Positions 1-13,970 of a DNA stretch of 28,189 bases are shown in pieces. The DNA lies in IMG/VR virus record IMGVR_UViG_3300035698_023959, positions 1 through 28,189 of that record; one strand, written 5' to 3'. Within the stretch, counting starts at the first letter, position 1. Each line of letters starts with the position of its first letter. A program made the position numbers and the translations under genes. Below the pieces are notes generated by a model that saw only the letters and a list, made by a program, of their open reading frames with translations, was not told the DNA's origin and did no database searches. This DNA is from a virus.

Positions 1-548
1 TCTTCATCGCGCTAGGGGCAAATCTCGTGCAGGCAAGCGTCGATGCCGAGACCTGGTATACAGAATACGCAATTCCGGATACTGGGGGCGCTTGGGCGAA
101 CTGGGCGCGCAATGCAGCAACAGCCCTGGCTAACACTAAGTACATCGGTCTTTATGGCGACCTTGATACTCCAAATGACTGGACCCACTACGTTGAGAGT
201 GCAGATGCAACAATAACCTTTGACGTTGATTTAGATCCTGATGAGATCTTTACTGGTGAACAGACAAACTACTCGATGGATTTGACCATTACAAACGGCG
301 CAACGACGAAGGCAATCACTCTTGAAACGAACGTGTCGCTCGACGATATAATAGAGATCGATACGGAAGCGAAGACAGTTTGGAATTTAACCCAGCAGGT
401 CAACCTGTTTGGGTCGTTAGAGCAGGTTGGCGGTGTGCGTCAGGAATGGTTGAAGTTGATTGAAGGGGTCAACATCCTGACCGCAACGGATCCGACTGCT
501 ACGCACGTTACCCTCGAGTACGTGTATGATAGGCGGTTCTATGAATAA
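1..548 (+). CDS. Distal-tail-like protein, C-terminal part (cut by left edge)
   Basis: The reading frame is open from base 3, so the gene begins outside the window and about 181 residues are visible. The first in-window start codon (GTG at 27) is probably internal. The C-terminal half is beta-rich and ends with a Trp-Leu-x-Leu-x-x-Gly-x-Asn turn followed by a short strand and an Arg-Arg-Phe-Tyr-Glu tail, a pattern seen at the end of distal tail (Dit-type) proteins of siphoviruses, where it closes a beta-sandwich after the Trp. Its stop overlaps the next gene's start by 8 bases, so the two are co-translated as in tail operons. The assignment rests on this pattern and on the tail-like downstream genes; a major tail or other tail-tube protein remains possible. 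Confidence 0.55.
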   Translation, partial: FIALGANLVQASVDAETWYTEYAIPDTGGAWANWARNAATALANTKYIGLYGDLDTPNDWTHYVESADATITFDVDLDPDEIFTGEQTNYSMDLTITNGATTKAITLETNVSLDDIIEIDTEAKTVWNLTQQVNLFGSLEQVGGVRQEWLKLIEGVNILTATDPTATHVTLEYVYDRRFYE

Positions 549-1572
549 TGCTGTAGAGACGCTGCTATATAATCGAAGCGGCACCAATCCAGCACTTTGT
601 ACGCCGGCCATTGACTCAGTTACATGGAGTTTGAATCGTTCAGGCCTGGTAAAGCTGTTTTTGCCGTACGTTGATCCTCTATGTACTCCTGACAAGCTTG
701 CATACGGAAATCGAGTACTGTTGCGATTTGGGAATGGTCTACCTCCTTTTGGGGGCGTTATCGATTTTCCACGAGTACGTACGGAAACGGGAGTCCAATT
801 CTCGGTATACACAGGAGATCGTATATTGAGTTGGAGGACCACAAATAAGATTACCTCGTTCACGGCAGCGTCTCCGGGCGACATTGTTAAGACTTTATTA
901 TTCGATATGAACAATGTTCGTAACACAGGGATCGTAGCTGGTGCTATGTACCTCGGCGGCGCTACGAGAACTGAGGAATATAACTATGCAAACGTACTCG
1001 ATGCACTCCAACGACTGTCAAGACAGAGCGGAGAAGACTTTCATGTATTGCCCTTAGTCTCGCCTATACGACTCACCTTTGCTCTTTACTGGCACAAGCT
1101 GCGGGGCGAGGCTCGGCCGGATGTTGCTTTCATCGAGGGAACAAATGCTTCGACACCCCTCGAAACTATTGAACAAGGTCCGGTCGCCTCTAGAGTGGTA
1201 CAGATAGGGGGGAGCGCTGGTGGTACAACTTGGGAAGATAGACTCGTTGGGGATGATCACAGTATGGAGGCAGAGGCTGAATTCGGATATCGAGAGATAG
1301 CGGAGATTCAGACTGGTATCTTCGATCAAGATACTCTCGATGCAATTGCTGCAACAACGTTGAACGATTTCAAGGATACTCGAAAGCATTTGCGGATCAT
1401 TGTCGCCAATCAACCCCCTGCATTGTACGGCCAGTATCATGTAGGCGATAGATGTGCTGTCCAGGCCTATCTTGGACAAGCGGGGTGGGAATACGATAGT
1501 ACAATTCGCATACTGGGTCGTCAGTGGATGCCGTCCGGTGCTTGTCAGCTAGAGGTGGTGGAATGGCTATAA
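541..1572 (+). CDS. Tail-tip/baseplate hub-like protein
   Basis: 343 residues from ATG 541; an in-frame ATG at 526 is less likely because an AGGCGG ribosome site at 531-536 sits properly before 541. The N-terminal half has beta-strands typical of siphoviral tail hub proteins: an early 'SGLVKLFLPYVDP' stretch, a 'GNRVLLRFGNG' strand, a 'FGGVIDF' strand, then a 'YTGDRILSWR' segment. This resembles the ReqiPepy6 Gp37-like/baseplate hub group in arrangement (family resemblance judged by eye). The middle contains an alpha/beta segment (residues about 125-180), and the C-terminal part returns to beta-strands. The stop overlaps the next start (ATGGCTATAA), supporting one tail operon. Likely role: connecting tail tube to receptor-binding proteins. 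Specific family membership is uncertain. Confidence 0.55.
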   Translation: MNNAVETLLYNRSGTNPALCTPAIDSVTWSLNRSGLVKLFLPYVDPLCTPDKLAYGNRVLLRFGNGLPPFGGVIDFPRVRTETGVQFSVYTGDRILSWRTTNKITSFTAASPGDIVKTLLFDMNNVRNTGIVAGAMYLGGATRTEEYNYANVLDALQRLSRQSGEDFHVLPLVSPIRLTFALYWHKLRGEARPDVAFIEGTNASTPLETIEQGPVASRVVQIGGSAGGTTWEDRLVGDDHSMEAEAEFGYREIAEIQTGIFDQDTLDAIAATTLNDFKDTRKHLRIIVANQPPALYGQYHVGDRCAVQAYLGQAGWEYDSTIRILGRQWMPSGACQLEVVEWL

Positions 1573-2807
1573 AAGGGAATCCCCTTGACCTAGTACGATA
1601 TGAAGGCAACCCAGTCGATGGACTGGACGCACTCAAAGAGCGCGTTAGACTACTTGAAACTACTGTATTGAGTGGAGTTGCTGGTCCACCAGGAGCTACA
1701 GGAGCTGATGGCCCAATAGGAGCGACAGGCACACCCGGTCCAGGAGCTCCAGCTCCGTTAGCGCAAGGCGACGTTCTGGTCGTTGATGCGGTTCCAGATA
1801 TAACGACGCTTAACATTGGTAATGCGCACGAGATGATGAAGGTCAATGCAGCAGGAACTGATCCGGCGTGGGAGGCATTTGATTGGGATGAGATGAGCGG
1901 TGTCGGTGGTGCAGATATGGTACACACGCACCAAGCAGCGTTAGAGGGTGGTACATTAGCCAATGCTGCACTGTCTGGCATACCTGGCCTCATCGCCGCA
2001 ATTCTTACCGATCACGACGTAGCAGCACACAATGCTTTGGCGATCGATCACGGATCATTGAGTGGCAGAGCTGATGACGATCATTCACAGTACTTGCTCG
2101 CATCAGGTGCTCGTACAGGAGCGGTAACTGGAGATCAGCTCTTTACGAACGGTGTCAAGATCGTGGATGGATTGGTGGTAGGCAATAACGTAGCTCCTAC
2201 TAATGACCAGATCCGTCTGTATCGTGGTGCTACGTGGATGGGGCAGATCAGCACAAACGAGACGACTTGGTTCCGCATCAACCAAGATGTCGCAAAGAAT
2301 ATCTACACGCCACGGTCTTTTTGCGCCCAAGGCTCTCTCACATCTGGTGGTTCACTCCTCCCTGGAGCAGGCCATGTCCTTTACACTGGCCATCTCATTA
2401 GCTACAAAGGTGGGGCGCAGAACGAAGTGTACGCCGTCAAATCCCTGCTTGCTCCACTCACTTCGACCAGCTACGATGGAGACTCGTTCAGTACGACAGG
2501 GAAGACACTTCTAGACCTGTCTGCGCTCTTTGGCATGTCAGCATATGCGAAACAGGCAATGATTCGATTGTTGGTGCGCGATAGTGGCTCAGCAGCATCG
2601 GCGCAGTGCTGGTGGGGAGTAGCACCGAACAATACAGGCGGTGTACTATGCACCGCGATCTGGTTGAATGGCGAAGTAAACGATTCGTGGCGTGAAGCTG
2701 GCGGAATGACGGCACTTACCGCTTCAGGAGACCTATACAGACAAAACGTCGCAAGTGGCGCAGGTCGAATGGAAGTTTACATGCAGTTCTGGGGCTATAC
2801 GCTCTAA
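1563..2807 (+). CDS. Tail fiber / receptor-binding protein with collagen-like repeats
   Basis: 414 residues from ATG 1563, preceded by AGAGGTGG and overlapping the previous stop by 10 bases; a GTG at 1524 is in frame but lies inside the upstream gene. Residues about 20-36 form a short coiled coil, followed by Gly-X-Y repeats at about 41-61 (GPPGATGADGPIGATGTPGP), typical of trimeric phage fibers. Residues about 115-190 hold His/Asp-rich motifs such as 'HTHQ' and 'ADDDHSQYL', a short sequence that recurs in many phage fiber and appendage proteins. The remaining 220 residues are beta-rich and likely form the distal binding domain. Probable role: host-surface recognition at the tail tip. The receptor cannot be deduced. 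Confidence 0.75.
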   Translation: MAIKGNPLDLVRYEGNPVDGLDALKERVRLLETTVLSGVAGPPGATGADGPIGATGTPGPGAPAPLAQGDVLVVDAVPDITTLNIGNAHEMMKVNAAGTDPAWEAFDWDEMSGVGGADMVHTHQAALEGGTLANAALSGIPGLIAAILTDHDVAAHNALAIDHGSLSGRADDDHSQYLLASGARTGAVTGDQLFTNGVKIVDGLVVGNNVAPTNDQIRLYRGATWMGQISTNETTWFRINQDVAKNIYTPRSFCAQGSLTSGGSLLPGAGHVLYTGHLISYKGGAQNEVYAVKSLLAPLTSTSYDGDSFSTTGKTLLDLSALFGMSAYAKQAMIRLLVRDSGSAASAQCWWGVAPNNTGGVLCTAIWLNGEVNDSWREAGGMTALTASGDLYRQNVASGAGRMEVYMQFWGYTL

Positions 2808-2817
2808 GGAGGTTCTT

Positions 2818-3312
2818 ATGGCGCTCAAAAAGAATGAAATCAACGAAGCACATATCTCTATGGTACAGAGCGGTGAGGCAACGATCCCGATTGGTATGCC
2901 TGGACTACTTGTTACGACTGCATTGGGTAGTCGTGATGATGCGGGAGAGTTCGTATGGGATCGTAAAGCGGTTGTGATGCTCTGTACACAGCAAATGTAC
3001 GACGACGCTGTCGATCCTGTTACTGGAGAGCCTCTCCCCAACTATCATGTTATACCAGACTTCCTCATCGAGCACTTTAGAGAGGGCATGATCGCGTTGG
3101 AGGATCATATTCAGTTTCTGGTCAACGAAGACCATCTTGATGCACCGAAGAACAAGACAGAGCTCAAACGAAGACAGTACACAACGAAGGATCCACGAGT
3201 TCGAGCATCGTGGAAGACTCTTAACGGTCACGCGACTGCACCTGGCACAGGACCTAAAGTGCCGACCACTAAAGAGCGAATCGCCTCCTTCAAGGAAATA
3301 CTCAAGTCCTAA
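2818..3312 (+). CDS. Hypothetical protein in the tail operon
   Basis: 164 residues, start ATG 2818 behind an excellent AAGGAGG site 10 bases downstream of the fiber stop. I do not recognise the family. The sequence is soluble, acidic in the middle ('FLIEHFREGMIALEDHIQFL', residues about 80-100, probably helical) and ends with a basic, Pro/Thr-rich stretch ('GTGPKVPTTKERIASFKEIL'). No membrane segment, signal peptide or Cys cluster is present. Placement directly after the fiber and before two membrane proteins would suit a fiber chaperone/assembly factor or a small virion protein, but nothing in the sequence proves either. Confidence 0.65.
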   Translation: MALKKNEINEAHISMVQSGEATIPIGMPGLLVTTALGSRDDAGEFVWDRKAVVMLCTQQMYDDAVDPVTGEPLPNYHVIPDFLIEHFREGMIALEDHIQFLVNEDHLDAPKNKTELKRRQYTTKDPRVRASWKTLNGHATAPGTGPKVPTTKERIASFKEILKS

Positions 3313-3321
3313 GGAAGTGCT

Positions 3322-3840
3322 ATGCCCATCAATGACAGTGTTTCGGTGCTTATAGTCGATGACGATGTACCCACCGTACGACAACTCGCCCGCACTTTGA
3401 AAGGCCAGGACTATATAGTACACACAGCGACGAGCGCCGAAGGTGCTTTGCAGCTATTACCATTGGCCGATATTCTGTGGCTCGATTTGGGACTTCATTC
3501 AAATGGAGCATCGTCTAGGGTCGTTCTCAGTGAATGGATGAGAGCTAAGGACGGTCCTGTATGTGTTTATTCGACTGGGATCACTCGCGATACTGAATGG
3601 GAGATGATGATGTACGGTGCGGACAACGTGTTTCCGAAGCCTATTCGCCCCGACGTGGTCTCGACTGTAATGTTACGATACGCAAGGAGGGTTAAACGAG
3701 ATCAACGACTGGATACAGTGGAGAAGAATCAACAGCTGCTAAAGCGATGGCTCATAGTGGTCGGGATCGCAGCGTTTGGAAGCGGACTGATCGGAGAAGC
3801 GGGCTTTGGCCTAATCAACATCATAGCAACACTTTTCTAA
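3322..3840 (+). CDS. Receiver-domain (CheY-like) protein with C-terminal membrane anchor
   Basis: 172 residues, ATG 3322 after a TAAGGAAG site 10 bases from the previous stop. Residues 7-125 match the response-regulator receiver fold: strand 'VSVLIVDDD' with the acidic pocket D13-D14-D15, phospho-acceptor position D55 in 'ILWLDLGL', hydroxyl residue T85 in 'VYSTG' and lysine K106 in 'FPKPI'. All canonical phosphorylation residues are therefore present. No DNA-binding or output domain follows; instead residues about 142-172 form one hydrophobic segment (WLIVVGIAAFGSG onward), so the receiver would sit in the cytoplasm and be tethered to the membrane. It lies between tail genes and a holin-like gene, at the usual place of lysis genes. 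Function is unknown; binding to host two-component or membrane proteins, or timing of lysis, are inferences. Confidence 0.7.
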   Translation: MPINDSVSVLIVDDDVPTVRQLARTLKGQDYIVHTATSAEGALQLLPLADILWLDLGLHSNGASSRVVLSEWMRAKDGPVCVYSTGITRDTEWEMMMYGADNVFPKPIRPDVVSTVMLRYARRVKRDQRLDTVEKNQQLLKRWLIVVGIAAFGSGLIGEAGFGLINIIATLF

Positions 3841-3849
3841 GGAGGACCT

Positions 3850-5037
3850 ATGTTTAACTTGGATCTCGATCTTACAGCGAAAATATTGATATGGATGATC
3901 TCGGGAGGTGGAGCAGGAGCTGCGGCCTTCTGGCTTTGGGGGAAGATCGAAACGTATCATCAAGGTGCGAAGGAGTTGCCCGGAGAACTTAAACGATGGA
4001 TAGCGCTCATCGTTGGCGCTGTGCTGGCCGTCCTTGCATTCCTTTGTATGGCTTGGTTTGGACTGGTCGTGCTACCCATTACGCCTCAATCGTGGGTCAA
4101 TACGATCGTAGCACTTATTGGAGTGTCGTACATTACCAGTCAAAAGCTTCATGCACGGATACAGCTGTCAAAACAACGGAAAGAGGCACTCCGATGGCTA
4201 CAACGTCATGAACGCACCCTCTCCAACGTACAACTCTCTATGTTGAGTAATGCACTGGGTGGAATCAGTAGCGAAAGGAATGGTCCTGCGGATTGGGTCG
4301 AGATATTCCGTTCGAGTATGAACGAGTTCTATGACTATCAAGCACCGGAGTTGACTGTCCCCGTAAACTCTGTTCCTCTGTGGGAGCACGACAAAGTTGA
4401 TGGACGATTAGACCGACCCGAATACGATCGTCGATCGCCTCCACACACTTACTCGCCGCCCTTTGCTGCAGGCATGTTTTCGATGCATACCACAATGGAA
4501 GCCGCGATAGTGTTCGAAGTGGACTGTTTACCGGGGGATTCGATCCGCGCGCACGTAAAGGCCAATGGGATCGATTCGGTCGAGTCGCAACTTGGGCTGC
4601 GTTTGGGGATCGCGACTGCATATCCAGGAGCTGGAGCGATCGAAGTCGACAGCGGAGAAGACGGTAAGTTCACCGGACATCTTGCGAGCAGAGCGATATG
4701 GGGTGACTGGTACGACGGCTTGAAGGACGATGAGTGGGATCAACTATGGACGCCGATCGTTACTGCAGTTCAAGACCAGGTATGGATCCTTTGCCAGGCT
4801 CGAAAGGATTATCGCGAGCCCGGACACTCACACTGGGATTCTTTGGTCGTTGAAGCACAGCGCGGGAGTGTAACGCCACCACCGCCGAATGGTAGTCATG
4901 CCGTTAGAACGATCGTCTACCTCGATGATGAAGCAGTACACGACGTCTCCACCGAAGTACGCTGTCGAAAGGACGTCTCCGGGCAGATTTGTGTTTTGGC
5001 AGGGAAAATCTCAAGTCTCGCCTGCCCGGAGAGTTAG
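3850..5037 (+). CDS. Holin-like membrane protein with large C-terminal domain
   Basis: 395 residues, ATG 3850 behind AAGGAGG. The N-terminus has a hydrophobic segment at about 10-30 rich in Gly/Ala (ISGGGAGAAAFWLWG), a second at about 50-78, and a third weaker one at about 83-97, the layout of a two- or three-TM phage holin. A basic, helical stretch follows (residues about 98-125). The remainder is a soluble, probably beta-rich domain with 'FAAGMFSMHTTMEAAIVFEV' near 205-225 and a Pro run (TPPPPNG) near 345 leading into a last small domain with four Cys. The length is several times that of an ordinary holin. No peptidoglycan hydrolase motif was identified. It could be a holin fused to a lysis-related domain, or a membrane-bound virion protein. 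Last gene of the plus-strand late operon; its stop overlaps the convergent minus gene. Confidence 0.45.
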   Translation: MFNLDLDLTAKILIWMISGGGAGAAAFWLWGKIETYHQGAKELPGELKRWIALIVGAVLAVLAFLCMAWFGLVVLPITPQSWVNTIVALIGVSYITSQKLHARIQLSKQRKEALRWLQRHERTLSNVQLSMLSNALGGISSERNGPADWVEIFRSSMNEFYDYQAPELTVPVNSVPLWEHDKVDGRLDRPEYDRRSPPHTYSPPFAAGMFSMHTTMEAAIVFEVDCLPGDSIRAHVKANGIDSVESQLGLRLGIATAYPGAGAIEVDSGEDGKFTGHLASRAIWGDWYDGLKDDEWDQLWTPIVTAVQDQVWILCQARKDYREPGHSHWDSLVVEAQRGSVTPPPPNGSHAVRTIVYLDDEAVHDVSTEVRCRKDVSGQICVLAGKISSLACPES

Positions 5038-7119: not shown

Positions 7120-7356
7120 CTATCCGCTCTCCGCAATAATTTGCTTTGCTACGTCTTGCGCCGAGCGCCGAGTTATGCGGCCATACGCTTCTACCAAATC
7201 GATCCATGCCACTACACGCCCCGACGAATGGTTGCCGTCCAGGTTCTTGGTACTCGTAAACCGTCGAAGCACTCGGTATTCAGTGCGTATCGGATCACCA
7301 AGATAGACATATCGCCCGACCGTTAAACGATGTGCTGCATTGCTTACAGTGGTCAA
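7120..7356 (-). CDS. Small hypothetical protein coupled to the polymerase stop
   Basis: 78 residues if started at TTG 7356, chosen because GGAGG lies five bases before it and the TTG overlaps the polymerase TGA (TTGA), a standard coupling arrangement. An in-frame start at 7422 would give 100 residues but overlap the polymerase by 70 bases. The sequence is basic, with 'VGRYVYLGDPIRTEYRVLRR' in the first half and a helical end ('SAQDVAKQIIAESG'). No family recognised. The region resembles a small beta-barrel or SH3-like protein followed by a helix, a weak impression only. Confidence 0.5.
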   Translation of the reverse strand: MTTVSNAAHRLTVGRYVYLGDPIRTEYRVLRRFTSTKNLDGNHSSGRVVAWIDLVEAYGRITRRSAQDVAKQIIAESG

Positions 7357-10091
7357 AGCGCACCTCCACACGTCAAGCACTTCGGATTCTTTTCCCGGCG
7401 CGACTCTCGTGGCGGATTCCATCTACCGCATCCTTCGCAGATCTCATGCGCCATTCGTTCTAGAAACTCGGCCTGTTCGAGAAGCGGTCGATGATCGATC
7501 TTGTTGCGCCAAGCAGATGTTCCATCGTACGAAACGAGCGTACCCCATCGATAACCAACATCGACGTCCACAGTGAAAGGTATCTCATCCCCAAATACCT
7601 TTTCCGCCGCCTTTTCCATAGCCTTCCGTAGCAGCTCGGCGGCTTCCGCAATGCGTACGTCATCATCAGGACATTCCACGATGTCGCTGTCATGTACCGT
7701 TATGAGCGGGAAGACATCCTTGGGCGCTGTGCGTTGTGTGACGATGAGAGCATCTATCGTTAGATCGCTTGCTGTTCCGGCGCAAGGCGCGTGAACGACT
7801 GCCTTCTTAGCGTCTGCTGCGTTCGTATCCAGCAATAGCGGAAAACGTCGTTTCCTTCCCGTAGGACTCTGTACATAGCCCTGCTGTTGCAACGTCTGGA
7901 ATTGTGTTTTGCGCCATGTCGCTAAGCCCTGCATTAGTTCATTGTACCGCCTAACCCATGCTGTTGCAGCGCTAATATCCATACCAGCATCGTACGCGAA
8001 CGAGTGTTGTGTACCACCATATAGGTAGGCGAAGTTGAACATCTTGCATATGTTTCGCTGTTCCTTTGTGAAGTGCTCTCCGTACATACTCAAGGCGACC
8101 TCTGTGTGTAGATCTCGACCCTCCCTATACACACTGAGCAGAAACTCGTCTTGGCTTAGCACCGCCGCACAGCGCAATTCGGCTTGGCTGTAGTCCGCGT
8201 GAATAAGTACGTAATCGGGCGTTGCGATATAGAAGTCTCGGATAAGCTTTCCGGTCGCTTCGTACGCTCTTGGAATGGTTTGGATCGCTGGGTTACTCGC
8301 GCTGAGTCTGCCCACTTCCGTTCCTGAAACATTGAAGACGGGGTGTACTCGTCCGTTGCCGTCTTCGAACTTGTGAACATTCCTTACATAGCTAGACATC
8401 AGCTTACTGTATCGTCGAATGTCCATCATTAGTGCCAAGAACTCATCTTCGGGGTGCTTGTCCGCTAGGATCTTTAGGACTTCCTTCCTAGTCGATCTCG
8501 ACCGCTTTCCTCTCATCTGCGGCGGAGAATATCCTTTCTCATCCCAAAGTACCCTCTTCGTTTGAACATGACTATTAGGATTGAAATTAGGATCTCCTAC
8601 GTTCAACCGCAGTCGTTCGAGCACTGCTTCAGCCTTACCTTCCAAGAAGAATGCTACCTCAGTGAGCCGCTTCCAATCGATCTGCATACCGCGCATCTCG
8701 ACCTGGATAAAGGCTCTCTGTGCAGGCATAATAAGGTCAAGGTACAATCGTTTTACTTTACGTTCGAGCCCGACTTCGTTAATCAACTTGTACCATAGAC
8801 GGCGAGTATAGTCCGTATCCATTCCTGCGTACTCGCCCAGCAGCTCCGGTGGTACGTTAGCGAACGAAGTCTTCTTCGAAGGAAGATACCACTTGATCGT
8901 GTTCGCTTCATAATCAGGCACGTCGAAGTATTGTGATACAAGAGGCTTCAGAGCGTGAAACGTGCCTCGGCTTCGTTCGTCCAGGGCGCAGTGCAGTGCA
9001 TAAGTATCGTGGTGGAGCTTTGGCGTAAACCCAAGCTGCCACAGGAGGAACTTCGCATCAAACTTACCGTTGTGACCTATCCAGATAATATACGGTGCTG
9101 CGAAGAGCCTGGCCAGCGCTGCCTTGACCTGCTTTTGCCAAAGTAGTCCACCAGAGACCACCAACGATTTACCTGTTCCCCAAGACAACGATACATTCAG
9201 TATCCTGTCTCTATACGGCAAGTACCCCGTTGTTTCGAGGTCGAATGCCATTACGCACTGTACTGATTCACCCTCCCGCGCTAGCGTATTCAGTGCTACT
9301 GTGACATCCTCGATCATGCACTTCGCTGCTTTTCGTAAGGATGCTTTGTTGTCCGCGAGACGGTCCGATTCGATCCAATCGATTCCTTGCTTGATGCAAT
9401 ACGTCCGCAACCATACTAGCTCGTGGCCGTCGTGATTGTGCTTGAGCTTTGGATCGAGCCACTTGCGCATTTTAGAATCTGGATAGTGCCAGAACAATGT
9501 TTCAGTAGGAATGAAGGTCTCTGGTGCAGTTCTAGCAAACTTTTCGATGTCCCAGAGATAATCACGACCGACGTTGGCGCCTTCCGCGGACTTGAGCAAA
9601 TACGCCGGATGGAAGGTAGGTAAGACCCACCACTGATACTCTACGTTGCCCTTCGAAGTCTCCTGGATGTAGTCCACTGAAACCCAACGACCTCGTACGA
9701 ACGTTATTGGAACATCTCCCTCGCCAGTCAGGGCATAGCGCGCCTCATTACCTAAAGACAGGACATACTTCGGTCCCGCCTCAGCTATCTCTGCAAGGAG
9801 ACGGTCTTTGCAGCACTCGGCCGCTTTAGGAGGTACTCCGTCAGTGCCAGGAAAGCAAAGGACTGAGTTGGTAACGTGCATGCGTTCACGATGTATACCG
9901 ACCGCGTTCAGTGCGCCCCATACTAATAGGCCGCTCGGACCAATGAATGGAACTTTCTTGATTGCCTCTGTACGTCCAGGCGCTTCTCCAACGACCGCTA
10001 GCATAGCGTTTTTTGATCTCGATGGAGGTACGAACGCTCTATTACGTAGAGGACACTCATCGCAATGTGCGTAAGGTGCTTTTATGGTCAT
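7353..10091 (-). CDS. UDG-like / 3'-5' exonuclease / family A DNA polymerase fusion
   Basis: 912 residues from ATG 10091 (AAAGGAGG site); the frame extends further upstream but the consensus promoter lies there. Residues 1-190 resemble a family 4/5 uracil-DNA glycosylase: Cys10-x2-Cys13, 'GEAPGR' at 35-40, Cys79 and Cys94 (the four-Cys Fe-S pattern), and 'HPAYL' at 161-165. Exonuclease motifs follow: 'FDLETTGY' (D284, E286), 'GHNGKFDAKF' and 'YAGMDTDYT'. The polymerase domain has motif A 'HADYSQAELR', motif B 'RNICKMFNFAYLYGG' (Lys, Phe and Tyr at the usual spacings) and motif C 'VHDSD'. The last 27 residues add a C-x2-C-x16-C-x2-C zinc ribbon. All catalytic motifs look intact, so this is the replicative polymerase. 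UDG-like domains fused to phage family A polymerases are known (from memory, SPO1-like phages); whether this one excises or only reads uracil is unknown. First gene after its promoter. Confidence 0.9.
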   Translation of the reverse strand: MTIKAPYAHCDECPLRNRAFVPPSRSKNAMLAVVGEAPGRTEAIKKVPFIGPSGLLVWGALNAVGIHRERMHVTNSVLCFPGTDGVPPKAAECCKDRLLAEIAEAGPKYVLSLGNEARYALTGEGDVPITFVRGRWVSVDYIQETSKGNVEYQWWVLPTFHPAYLLKSAEGANVGRDYLWDIEKFARTAPETFIPTETLFWHYPDSKMRKWLDPKLKHNHDGHELVWLRTYCIKQGIDWIESDRLADNKASLRKAAKCMIEDVTVALNTLAREGESVQCVMAFDLETTGYLPYRDRILNVSLSWGTGKSLVVSGGLLWQKQVKAALARLFAAPYIIWIGHNGKFDAKFLLWQLGFTPKLHHDTYALHCALDERSRGTFHALKPLVSQYFDVPDYEANTIKWYLPSKKTSFANVPPELLGEYAGMDTDYTRRLWYKLINEVGLERKVKRLYLDLIMPAQRAFIQVEMRGMQIDWKRLTEVAFFLEGKAEAVLERLRLNVGDPNFNPNSHVQTKRVLWDEKGYSPPQMRGKRSRSTRKEVLKILADKHPEDEFLALMMDIRRYSKLMSSYVRNVHKFEDGNGRVHPVFNVSGTEVGRLSASNPAIQTIPRAYEATGKLIRDFYIATPDYVLIHADYSQAELRCAAVLSQDEFLLSVYREGRDLHTEVALSMYGEHFTKEQRNICKMFNFAYLYGGTQHSFAYDAGMDISAATAWVRRYNELMQGLATWRKTQFQTLQQQGYVQSPTGRKRRFPLLLDTNAADAKKAVVHAPCAGTASDLTIDALIVTQRTAPKDVFPLITVHDSDIVECPDDDVRIAEAAELLRKAMEKAAEKVFGDEIPFTVDVDVGYRWGTLVSYDGTSAWRNKIDHRPLLEQAEFLERMAHEICEGCGRWNPPRESRREKNPKCLTCGGAL
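7723..7734 (-). repeat. 12-mer ACGCACAGCGCC, copy 1
   Basis: Exact copy inside the polymerase gene, read there as Gln-Arg-Thr-Ala-Pro. See the finding on this motif. Confidence 0.7.
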
Positions 10092-10118
10092 CTTGCCTCC
10101 TTTAATGTCGTCTATATA

Positions 10119-10147
10119 ATTATACCTGATTTTCAGGAAAATGTCAA
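10119..10147 (-). promoter_or_regulatory. Consensus promoter for the polymerase operon
   Basis: Minus strand TTGACA, 17-base spacer, TATAAT: a perfect consensus. The spacer holds the inverted repeat CCTGATTTTCAGG (10125-10137), a possible repressor operator. It lies about 28 bases before the polymerase ATG. Confidence 0.85.
10125..10137. promoter_or_regulatory. Inverted repeat in the polymerase promoter spacer
   Basis: CCTGA TTT TCAGG, a perfect 5-bp inverted repeat between -35 and -10. A protein binding here would block RNA polymerase. No regulator is identified. Confidence 0.4.
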
Positions 10148-10160
10148 CAGAATCTGGAAC

Positions 10161-10189
10161 GAGGAAGGTAGTCATAGACTACCCTCCTC
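10161..10189 (-). terminator. Hairpin after dpdA (terminator-like, no U-tract)
   Basis: On the minus strand a 13-bp stem with three-base loop (GAGGAGGGTAGTC TAT GACTACCTTCCTC), one G-T wobble. It sits 10 bases after the dpdA stop and just before the polymerase promoter. It lacks a U-run, so termination would be factor-dependent or weak. Confidence 0.5.
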
Positions 10190-11608: not shown

Positions 11609-12229
11609 TTAACGACGTACTTCGGACATGAACTCCGCTTTAGCGGCAGGATTGAGCCGATAGATCCCTCTAAGCACGGTAGTGATCATCAAGGGTATCG
11701 GCGGCTGTTTGACGTCAAGGAGCTGACATGTATGCTGTGCTTGGATGCGTACGACCACCCCAAGCGGCCGACAACTCTTTTCAAGACCGTCGGCGATCGC
11801 GTTTGCCAGGTGTTCCTGCATCCAGTAGCCTTTAGCGATGTCTCTGACCGCTAAGGGTATTTTCGAAAGCCCCAGGAGGTCGTCGTTCGGTATATAGCCA
11901 ACGCTGACGGTGCCGAAGAACGGCAGAAGGTGATGGCTACACGCTGACCAGAAGGTAATGTCTGGTACGACTACCATGTGATCGATACGCGGGTTTTCGT
12001 TCGGGAACGACGTGATATGAAGCGCTTCCTTAGGGCGCTGTGCGTCACCGATCAACGTCTGCAAATACCGAACAAAGCGATAGGGCGTCGCGTTCGTGTG
12101 CTCTGTATTGAGATCGACGCCAATCTTTGCGAGCGCAACTCTCACCGCTGTCGCTGCTGGAATGTCTACCTCAGGATGACGCTTGAGGTAGTTCTCTGAA
12201 CTGTTCTGGAATTCCTGTGCTTCTGACAT
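11609..12229 (-). CDS. folE: GTP cyclohydrolase I
   Basis: 206 residues, ATG 12229 (AAGGAG site), ten bases after queE. Converts GTP to dihydroneopterin triphosphate, the first step to 7-deazaguanines. Recognisable features: 'NATPYRFVRYL' (the D-T-P-x-R-region of the family), 'FWSACSHHLLPFFGTVSVGY' with the zinc ligands C97 and H100, and 'AQHTC' giving the third ligand C168. Length is close to the usual 190-220. Catalytic residues appear intact. Since it lies in one operon with queD, queE and queC, it most likely feeds preQ0 synthesis rather than folate. The 12-mer ACGCACAGCGCC falls inside it at 12034-12045. Confidence 0.9.
   Translation of the reverse strand: MSEAQEFQNSSENYLKRHPEVDIPAATAVRVALAKIGVDLNTEHTNATPYRFVRYLQTLIGDAQRPKEALHITSFPNENPRIDHMVVVPDITFWSACSHHLLPFFGTVSVGYIPNDDLLGLSKIPLAVRDIAKGYWMQEHLANAIADGLEKSCRPLGVVVRIQAQHTCQLLDVKQPPIPLMITTVLRGIYRLNPAAKAEFMSEVRR
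12034..12045 (-). repeat. 12-mer ACGCACAGCGCC, copy 2
   Basis: Exact copy inside folE, read there as Asp-Ala-Gln-Arg-Pro. Confidence 0.7.
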
Positions 12230-12238
12230 AGTAGCTCC

Positions 12239-12877
12239 TTATTCTATGTTGAGCATCTTGTGAAGTTGAACCGATAGCCGGACATTGAAAAGTTTCGCTG
12301 CTTTGATGGCAAATCGGGTCGATGCTAGGTTGAAGTCGGTAGACTGTGTAGCCCACGGTTGCACACTGATACAACAGTGCGAATTGAGACTACGGACGCA
12401 CTCGATAGTATCCGAAAGATGTTTTGAAGTCTGGATCGTATTGGGATGACTCAGAAGGAGCTTTACCTCGTCCGCGTGAGGCAACAATGGAAGCTCTCGA
12501 ACGTTATTGGTCTTTGGTGAGACGACAAGCCAGTCGATGTCCTTGAGCAACCCCTGCGCTAACCATAACGTACCGTTCGTTTCCATTGCGATGGAGTAAT
12601 CGCGTTGTGTGAGAGCACGTAGTAGTTCCCGGAGTGCCAAAGGCTGCATTGTCGGTTCGCCGCCTGTGAGACACACCCATTTAACTCTCTTGAACTCCAT
12701 GATCTCCCGAATCACTTCCATCGCGACCATCTCTTTGCCGCTTTCCTCGCCGAGCGCGTTAGGAGTATCACAACCGACGCAACGCAAGTTGCAGCCAGCG
12801 AAACGAACGAAGTGCATCGGTAAACCTGTCTTTGCACCTTCGCCCTGGACAGTGGTAAAGACCTTTATGATTCGCAT
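12239..12877 (-). CDS. queE: 7-carboxy-7-deazaguanine synthase (radical SAM)
   Basis: 212 residues, ATG 12877 with AAGGG upstream, overlapping the end of queD by 13 bases. It turns 6-carboxytetrahydropterin into 7-carboxy-7-deazaguanine. The N-terminus has 'VQGEG' and the cluster-binding 'CNLRCVGC' (Cys29, Cys33, Cys36; C-x3-C-x2-C), the latter followed by 'DTPNA', which is the typical queE form. 'LTGGEP' near residue 70 is the SAM-binding motif. Length fits the family (about 200-230). Third gene of the preQ0 pathway cassette. Confidence 0.9.
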   Translation of the reverse strand: MRIIKVFTTVQGEGAKTGLPMHFVRFAGCNLRCVGCDTPNALGEESGKEMVAMEVIREIMEFKRVKWVCLTGGEPTMQPLALRELLRALTQRDYSIAMETNGTLWLAQGLLKDIDWLVVSPKTNNVRELPLLPHADEVKLLLSHPNTIQTSKHLSDTIECVRSLNSHCCISVQPWATQSTDFNLASTRFAIKAAKLFNVRLSVQLHKMLNIE

Positions 12878-13239
12878 ACGACCCTTACCCCCTGTCCTGG
12901 ATCCTCCCAGACCGTCAACGCGCTCAAGTATACACCAACTCGTACCCCTGAAAGCACGGAGTCGTACATGTCAAAGAGCCATTCTGCGATGTGCTCCGCC
13001 GTCGGATTGAAGATGTAGTCGTTGAAATGGATATGGTCTTTTACCGCGCCGTCGGTGAGCGCCTCGACATCATGGAAGTCCATAATCATTCCTGAAGTCT
13101 CACCAACAGTGCCTGCAATCTCGAGATCGATAAAGTATGTATGTCCATGAAGTGCAGCGCACTTGCCGACATACCCAGGCAAAAAGTGCGAGCCGTTGAG
13201 CTTGACGCGATACAGAAGGGTCGCCTCTAGCTTTGGCAC
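12865..13239 (-). CDS. queD: 6-carboxy-5,6,7,8-tetrahydropterin synthase
   Basis: 124 residues from GTG 13239, with AAAGGAG seven bases ahead; the start overlaps the end of queC by 13 bases, so the genes are coupled. It makes 6-carboxytetrahydropterin from the FolE product. Zinc ligands H18, H31 and H33 sit in 'GSHFLPG' and 'LHGH', and catalytic Cys27 in 'GKCAALHGH'. 'GMIMDFHD' and 'NPTAEHIAEW' are typical family segments. All key residues are present. Confidence 0.9.
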   Translation of the reverse strand: MPKLEATLLYRVKLNGSHFLPGYVGKCAALHGHTYFIDLEIAGTVGETSGMIMDFHDVEALTDGAVKDHIHFNDYIFNPTAEHIAEWLFDMYDSVLSGVRVGVYLSALTVWEDPGQGVRVVCES

Positions 13240-13970
13240 TGTTCATCTCCTTTCAATGGATCTTGAGCGTATTCGATCGGGTCCTGCAGCTTGTTGTGAT
13301 AGAAGGCGTTGAGACGCAGTTTACAGGTAGAGCAGACGCCGCAGGATACATGACGGACTTTGAGGAGAGGGTCTCCCGGAGTATAGACGGGTACGAACTG
13401 AGGATCATAACATGACCAAGTGAGCTCAAGGGGTGCTCTGAGTTTCACCCCCGTTCGAACAATTGCCGTCTTTGACATCTTGATGATCGGCGTATACAGT
13501 GAGATCTCTCCGGCGGTCGCTTCAGCCAAGGCACGCTTCATAGCGACAATGAAGGATGCAGTACAGTCGGGATAGTCTGCATCCTGTTCGTGCACACCAA
13601 TGCTAAGCGCACCAAAGCCGTGTTGTAGGCCCAGTGCTGCCGCGTGAGCGATCATAATCATGTTTCGATTGGGTACGTACGTCGATGGAATGCCTCCCGT
13701 ACCACTGATGCCGTGAGGCGCATCCGCAGAGGTCAAAGAGCTTCCACCCAGACCAGGGAGCGTAATGATGAAACGATCTTCCTCCTCGATCCTATAGTGA
13801 TCGCACAGCGCGTTGAATGCCCTGCGCTCCGGTACACTGTTGTTCTGCGTGTACTCAAAGTGAACGGCGCCGGTACGAGAGGGATGGATTAGATCGGAGA
13901 TCATAGCCAGCGATACTGCACTGTCTAGACCTCCACTGAGCACTGCGAGTAGTTGACGATCCTTAGTCAT
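13227..13970 (-). CDS. queC: 7-cyano-7-deazaguanine (preQ0) synthase
   Basis: 247 residues, ATG 13970 (AAAGGAG site), the first gene after the promoter at 14032-14060. An adenylating enzyme that converts 7-carboxy-7-deazaguanine and ammonia to preQ0. Features: ATP-binding 'LSGGLDS' (P-loop-like PPi motif), 'STYVPNRNM' typical of QueC, and C-terminal zinc cysteines in 'WSCYDP' and 'CGVCSTC'. No glutamine amidotransferase domain is fused, in contrast to archaeosine-type (Gat-QueC) phage genes, so the expected product is preQ0 itself. The four genes run in order queC-queD-queE-folE with short overlaps. Confidence 0.92.
   Translation of the reverse strand: MTKDRQLLAVLSGGLDSAVSLAMISDLIHPSRTGAVHFEYTQNNSVPERRAFNALCDHYRIEEEDRFIITLPGLGGSSLTSADAPHGISGTGGIPSTYVPNRNMIMIAHAAALGLQHGFGALSIGVHEQDADYPDCTASFIVAMKRALAEATAGEISLYTPIIKMSKTAIVRTGVKLRAPLELTWSCYDPQFVPVYTPGDPLLKVRHVSCGVCSTCKLRLNAFYHNKLQDPIEYAQDPLKGDEQCQS

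Follow-up and report, generated by a model that had tools for sequence, protein, structure and literature searches.

A CheY-like receiver with a probable membrane anchor encoded among phage late genes, and standalone receivers in phage lysis cassettes

The gene at 3322-3840 on the plus strand of a viral DNA fragment encodes a 172-aa protein that is a receiver domain, as judged from its Pfam match, its structural model and its residues, and that probably carries a C-terminal membrane helix. Standalone receivers were also found to recur in the lysis cassettes of other phages. The window, i.e. the whole stretch of DNA analyzed here, is the entire IMG/VR record IMGVR_UViG_3300035698_023959 (28,189 nt, linear, virus of bacteria), which is probably a fragment.

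Genomic context of the receiver gene

The receiver gene belongs to a run of late genes on the plus strand, encoding in order a Dit-type tail component, a minor tail protein, a collagen-containing fibre, a 164-aa protein, the receiver and a 395-aa protein, and this run converges on replication genes of the minus strand. The features referred to in the text are as follows.

1566-2807, plus strand: tail fibre-like protein that includes a short collagen-like stretch and closes the tail module
2818-3312, plus strand: 164-aa protein, function not assigned, co-directional and upstream of the receiver gene
3322-3840, plus strand: receiver domain with a probable C-terminal membrane anchor, 172 aa (Pfam, PHROG, model, Foldseek)
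3343-3657, plus strand: CheY-like receiver domain, residues 8-112, with D13/D14, D55, S84 and K106-P107 (PF00072, alignments, model)
3649-3735, plus strand: alpha-5 prolonged as a single basic helix, residues 110-138, into the hydrophobic segment (AF2, Arg/Lys-rich)
3736-3792, plus strand: residues 139-157 as the probable transmembrane helix, the remainder up to residue 172 being a hydrophobic tail (hydropathy, insertion energy)
3850-5037, plus strand: 395-aa protein; three membrane helices are predicted near the N-terminus (residues about 6-110), and the fold of the other 290 aa or so was not recognised
7353-10175, minus strand: fusion of uracil-DNA glycosylase (UDG) and DNA polymerase A (PolA), convergent with the late genes, used as bait for related viral contigs

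Intergenic gaps on either side of the receiver gene are 9-10 nt (previous stop to start, and stop to next ATG). A Shine-Dalgarno-like GGAAG lies upstream of it, AGGAGG precedes the ATG of 3850-5037, and the codon-position GC of the receiver gene (0.58/0.40/0.51) is like that of the adjoining genes. None of the ORFs scanned in the 28-kb fragment was recognised as an endolysin, and no HATPase_c domain was present in the window. A phage-encoded kinase partner was looked for in the window and in an uncultured contig carrying another receiver (L003), and was not found.

The earlier note on this DNA, made from its sequence alone, had placed the receiver before a holin-like gene. A three-helix protein is indeed encoded about 10 nt downstream, and a strongly basic segment after its third helix predicts an N-out/C-in topology. 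Pfam, PHROG and NCBIfam gave no holin family match above cut-off for the 3850-5037 product (phrog_126 only, E 0.45); it is holin-like by architecture only. Its model has a pLDDT of 40 overall, with only the N-terminus modelled. Three membrane helices with about 290 aa lacking a recognised fold or relatives are unusual for a holin-like protein.

On the minus strand, the gene at 7353-10175 joins a uracil-DNA glycosylase to the N-terminus of a DNA polymerase A with 3'-5' exonuclease, and tblastn matches covering both parts were obtained in other phages and in dozens of viral contigs. FolE, QueE, QueD and QueC, which constitute the preQ0 pathway, are consecutive at 11609-13970 of the same strand, and this row suggests that the phage DNA carries a 7-deazaguanine modification.

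Receiver domain of the 172-aa protein

The 172-aa protein matched PF00072 with an E-value of 1.8e-8 (35.0 bits, cut-off 30.2) and phrog_731 with an E-value of 4e-9. Its AF2 model (mean pLDDT 83) has a complete (beta-alpha)5 fold, for which Foldseek against the PDB returned matches at 1e-8 to 1e-9 including CpxR, PmrA, KdpE and VicR. VIA Z was about 20 for VicR and KdpE, and reached 20.6 for VicR (rmsd 1.2 over 119 residues). The structural comparison proposed in the earlier note thus found the receiver fold that it had predicted. No output domain, DNA-binding or other, was detected in the 172 aa by sequence, Pfam or model, also as claimed.

In alignments, D13/D14, D55, K106 and P107 coincide with the catalytic residues of receivers. 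The complete phospho-acceptor set first listed (D13-D15, D55, T85, K106) required correction at two positions: the conserved Ser/Thr is S84, near-invariant across ten phage receivers, T85 being the adjoining T+1 residue, and D15 lies outside the conserved acid pair D13/D14. After beta-5, V103 stands where receivers usually have the aromatic switch residue. When ten phage receivers, 13-22% identical to the window protein, were aligned, the positions of D13, D14, D55, S84 and K106 were conserved or near-invariant. The acidic residues, whose conservation had been proposed as a check, were kept in 9 of the 10 standalone phage receivers compared, that of phage V19 being the single clear loss.

Probable C-terminal membrane helix

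The single C-terminal transmembrane helix reported in the earlier note is marginal but probable, at about residues 139-157. In the AF2 model, residues 110-153 form a single helix, basic first and hydrophobic from about residue 140, after which comes a short hydrophobic helix, although pLDDT is only about 55 in the membrane segment. A crude estimate of the insertion energy of residues 139-157 is -0.4 kcal/mol. Against shuffles of the protein, a background that is itself hydrophobic, the 30-aa hydrophobic stretch gave p=0.025, whereas the top 19-aa window (144-162, KD 1.80) was equalled in 30% of shuffles (p 0.30). Many Arg and Lys residues lie N-terminal of the helix, so the receiver likely faces the cytosol, where kinases and phosphodonors are.

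Searches for relatives of the whole protein

A search for the same receiver-membrane fusion elsewhere, suggested earlier as a check, returned nothing: tblastn with the whole 172-aa protein found no relative in phages (E<=1), plasmids (E<=10) or viral contigs, and a genome scan matched only receiver domains inside larger proteins, namely hybrid histidine kinases and two response regulators of more than 500 aa. The neighbors at 526-1572 and 3850-5037 had no viral relatives either. Membership of the XhlA family (PF10779) was considered for the window protein and rejected, with no profile match in the window, as was identity as a PhoB-like transcriptional regulator, with no DNA-binding output domain.

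Scans of viral contigs with receiver profiles mostly returned host-like regulators (L002, L004 and L005), L003 being the useful match. Many receiver-matching 'phage' records that resemble bacterial contigs (Listeria LM, Acinetobacter MD-2021a, Y1/Y11) were left out. Records labelled as phage (OQ572403.1, OQ572412.1, OR84xxxx/OR85xxxx and CAKLQ*) also resemble bacterial chromosome contigs, with regulators, kinases and diguanylate cyclases, and such bacterial-looking records in the phage collection distort surveys of phage receivers.

By means of the UDG-PolA fusion, 80 related viral contigs were found. Replication modules are common to the window and these contigs, and the late genes of the window have no sequence relatives among them. 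None of the 38 contigs searched for receivers had one, so the receiver does not belong to the core genes of this group of phages. In four contigs (L013, L014, L017 and L023) the tail module ends with a small one-TM gene and then a multi-TM gene, converging on the polymerase gene. L084 has such a pair too, its second gene being Phage_holin_1 (PF04531, over cut-off). The small one-TM proteins are coiled-coil proteins with a mostly C-terminal TM, and most of them match no family. From these pairs, the position of the receiver-TM gene in the window looks like a slot for a lysis partner.

Standalone receivers in lysis cassettes of other phages

In a fold search among viral proteins, which was blind to gene position, the best match was ORF30 (gp30) of Alteromonas phage V22; other standalone phage receivers were traced by sequence only. 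The V22 gene order is tail fibre, chaperone, amidase, small protein with an N-terminal TM and coiled coil, receiver, Rz-like spanin and 2-TM protein. A similar arrangement is seen in A5 (TM/coiled coil, receiver gp11, Rz-like spanin, 2-TM protein, endolysin), while R9Y1-3 have TM/coiled coil, receiver and lysozyme, and R8W and H4/4 have an annotated class II holin, TM/coiled coil and receiver. For PB15 and XX1924, a coiled-coil gene of the XhlA family (phrog_937) overlaps the receiver gene by 4 nt, and a small lysin-like gene and then a GTA-type 3-TM holin come after the receiver, which has lost the Pro after Lys. The TM/coiled-coil gene of V19 is followed by a receiver without the equivalents of D55 and K106; this degenerate receiver (PT11-V19, L109, OP751378.1, 4498-4950) still adjoins its TM/coiled-coil gene. 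Among uncultured contigs, L117 has a GH108 endolysin whose nearest predicted upstream gene is a receiver, with no coiled-coil gene seen, and L003 has TM/coiled coil, receiver and a RusA-like gene, with no recognised holin or endolysin seen beside the receiver.

The receiver is directly 3' of a small membrane/coiled-coil gene in most of these phages. For all TM/coiled-coil partners the charge pattern predicts a cytosolic coiled coil, on the receiver's side of the membrane. The partners in R9Y1 (L104, 4627-4992) and R8W (L108, 4208-4504) have a common C-terminal motif, LTELTMHLLNQR / LDDLMLHLMNQR, which is a candidate receiver-binding site.

The chance of five lineages being placed randomly within two genes of a lysis gene was about 2e-5, an estimate that uses gene counts made partly by hand and lineages that are only partly independent. 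Most of the cases belong to Alteromonas phages (V22, A5, R9Y1-3, R8W, H4/4, PB15 and XX1924). The available text of PMC10579305 describes Alteromonas phages as exchanging modules, including the lysis region, and the lineages are for this reason not fully independent. On the other hand, the lysis genes vary by lineage, being a lysozyme, a spanin, a class II holin or a GTA holin, and this points to a functional link rather than to one inherited block. There were also counter-examples: the PhoP-like regulator of Bhz63 adjoins a kinase-like gene instead of lysis genes, and the CheY-like gene of L118 has no lysis gene in view.

Proposed role and rival explanations

The explanation we prefer, while giving it somewhat less than even weight, is that the 3322-3840 product is a membrane-tethered single-domain response regulator and a subunit of a late membrane/lysis module, with phosphorylation plausibly acting as the gate. 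Its C-terminal helix would keep the 172-aa receiver on the cytosolic side of the cytoplasmic membrane, and the protein, made with the late genes, would act as a regulatory subunit of the phage membrane/lysis machinery, with the three-helix protein of 3850-5037 as its probable target. We infer that host histidine kinases or small phosphodonors could phosphorylate D55, and that this could alter the alpha4-beta5-alpha5 surface or the dimer state of the receiver. The change might reach the hole-forming partner by way of the uninterrupted helix formed by alpha-5 and the membrane segment, and would hasten or delay the triggering of that partner. The window protein may then be a one-chain version of the two-gene unit of Alteromonas phages (membrane coiled coil and separate receiver); with no homologue found for the whole protein, it is linked to those modules by architecture and position only. 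The more general proposition is that receivers, fused or paired with a membrane anchor, were repeatedly recruited by phages to make holin triggering switchable by phosphorylation. The window protein would be the single-chain form of this switch; we consider the proposition possible though rather doubtful. The earlier note had proposed a phage protein that senses or captures host two-component phosphorylation at the membrane, perhaps to time lysis. Its link to lysis is strengthened by the standalone receivers in lysis cassettes of unrelated phages and by the small-TM/multi-TM pairs of the Pol-related contigs, and is weakened by a helix that is only probable and a neighbor lacking a holin family match.

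One rival explanation is a phosphate decoy: membrane histidine kinases would lose phosphoryl groups to the tethered receiver, which would not touch the holin, and host envelope-stress responses would be muted while holins and virions accumulate. The intact D/S/K set, the lack of an output domain, the probable membrane location near kinases and the late position agree with this, and phage proteins targeting host two-component systems exist, e.g. PIT4 in the available text of PMC10714779. We nevertheless judge the decoy to be unlikely: early expression and a free position would be expected of it, it does not account for receivers of several lineages being tightly paired with genes for membrane coiled coils and for holins or endolysins, and V19 keeps the gene without the phospho-Asp. 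The V19 receiver, which lacks the Lys as well and still has its coiled-coil partner, favors a docking role, in which the receiver fold only dimerises or binds a partner and phosphorylation is irrelevant; so does the loss of the Pro in PB15 and XX1924. However, 9 of 10 receivers retain the catalytic residues despite such low identity to the window protein. This would be difficult to account for if phosphorylation played no part, and phosphate-independent docking likewise seems improbable to us.

Late-module ends often carry accessory genes, and a host receiver captured between the tail and replication modules with no role in lysis would account for the lack of an orthologue in related contigs and for ordinary hybrid kinases being the best sequence relatives in genomes. 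The apparent fusion to a membrane anchor, the short gaps on both sides and the repeated siting of receivers in lysis cassettes of other phages speak against such an incidental gene, which we regard as quite unlikely. Published annotations favor yet another role, in which the gene would adjust host signalling as a PhoB-like gene or a class II auxiliary metabolic gene: the available text of the papers classes the receivers of V22 and A5 as CheY-like class II auxiliary metabolic genes (PMC7289586, PMC10579305) and that of R8W as PhoB (PMC8228385). These texts cite no functional test for the three genes, and the R9Y paper (PMC9430817) does not mention the receiver. R8W gp48 (L108, MW043865.1, 4501-4962, 153 aa) is a receiver without a DNA-binding domain, so its annotation as PhoB looks wrong; the window protein also lacks such a domain and is probably membrane-bound, and for it this role is very improbable.

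The usual account of lysis timing in tailed phages is that of a clock intrinsic to the holin, for which few inputs are known; the textbook one is the T4 antiholin RI. The similar switches in the lysis gene clusters of unrelated phages suggest that the time of cell burst may, in some phages, be open to host signalling. If the more general proposition is true, lysis timing would follow host two-component signalling or phosphodonor levels, and annotations as PhoB or metabolic genes would be corrected. No literature linking receivers to lysis was found in open-access papers. Since lysis-cassette receivers are present in several phage types, some of them culturable on Alteromonas, a direct test is possible.

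Comparison with known systems

Like CheY, DivK and Spo0F (PF00072), the window protein has the receiver fold, acid pair, phospho-Asp, Ser/Thr and Lys-Pro, with no output domain; unlike them, it has a probable C-terminal anchor, a location among phage late genes and a Val at the aromatic switch position. The cREC of jumbo phages (PMC7824862) is likewise a phage-encoded receiver fold, but is tied to NAD/ADP-ribose or cyclic-nucleotide genes, whereas the window protein is an ordinary PF00072 member in a late module, with no NAD/ADPr-processing gene among its annotated neighbors. XhlA-type proteins (PF10779, phrog_937 'hemolysin') have a soluble cytosolic part and a C-terminal TM and are encoded beside a holin. 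In the window protein a receiver replaces the coiled coil, the TM is marginal and the neighbor resembles a holin in architecture only. Closest in arrangement are V22 gp30, A5 gp11, R8W gp48 and the receivers of PB15, XX1924 and R9Y1, which adjoin a membrane-protein gene and are about 15-20% identical to the window protein. The Alteromonas-phage receivers, annotated as auxiliary metabolic gene, PhoB or hypothetical, lie in the lysis cassette next to a membrane protein with its soluble part on the cytosolic side; they are separate soluble proteins, whereas the window receiver carries its own probable anchor.
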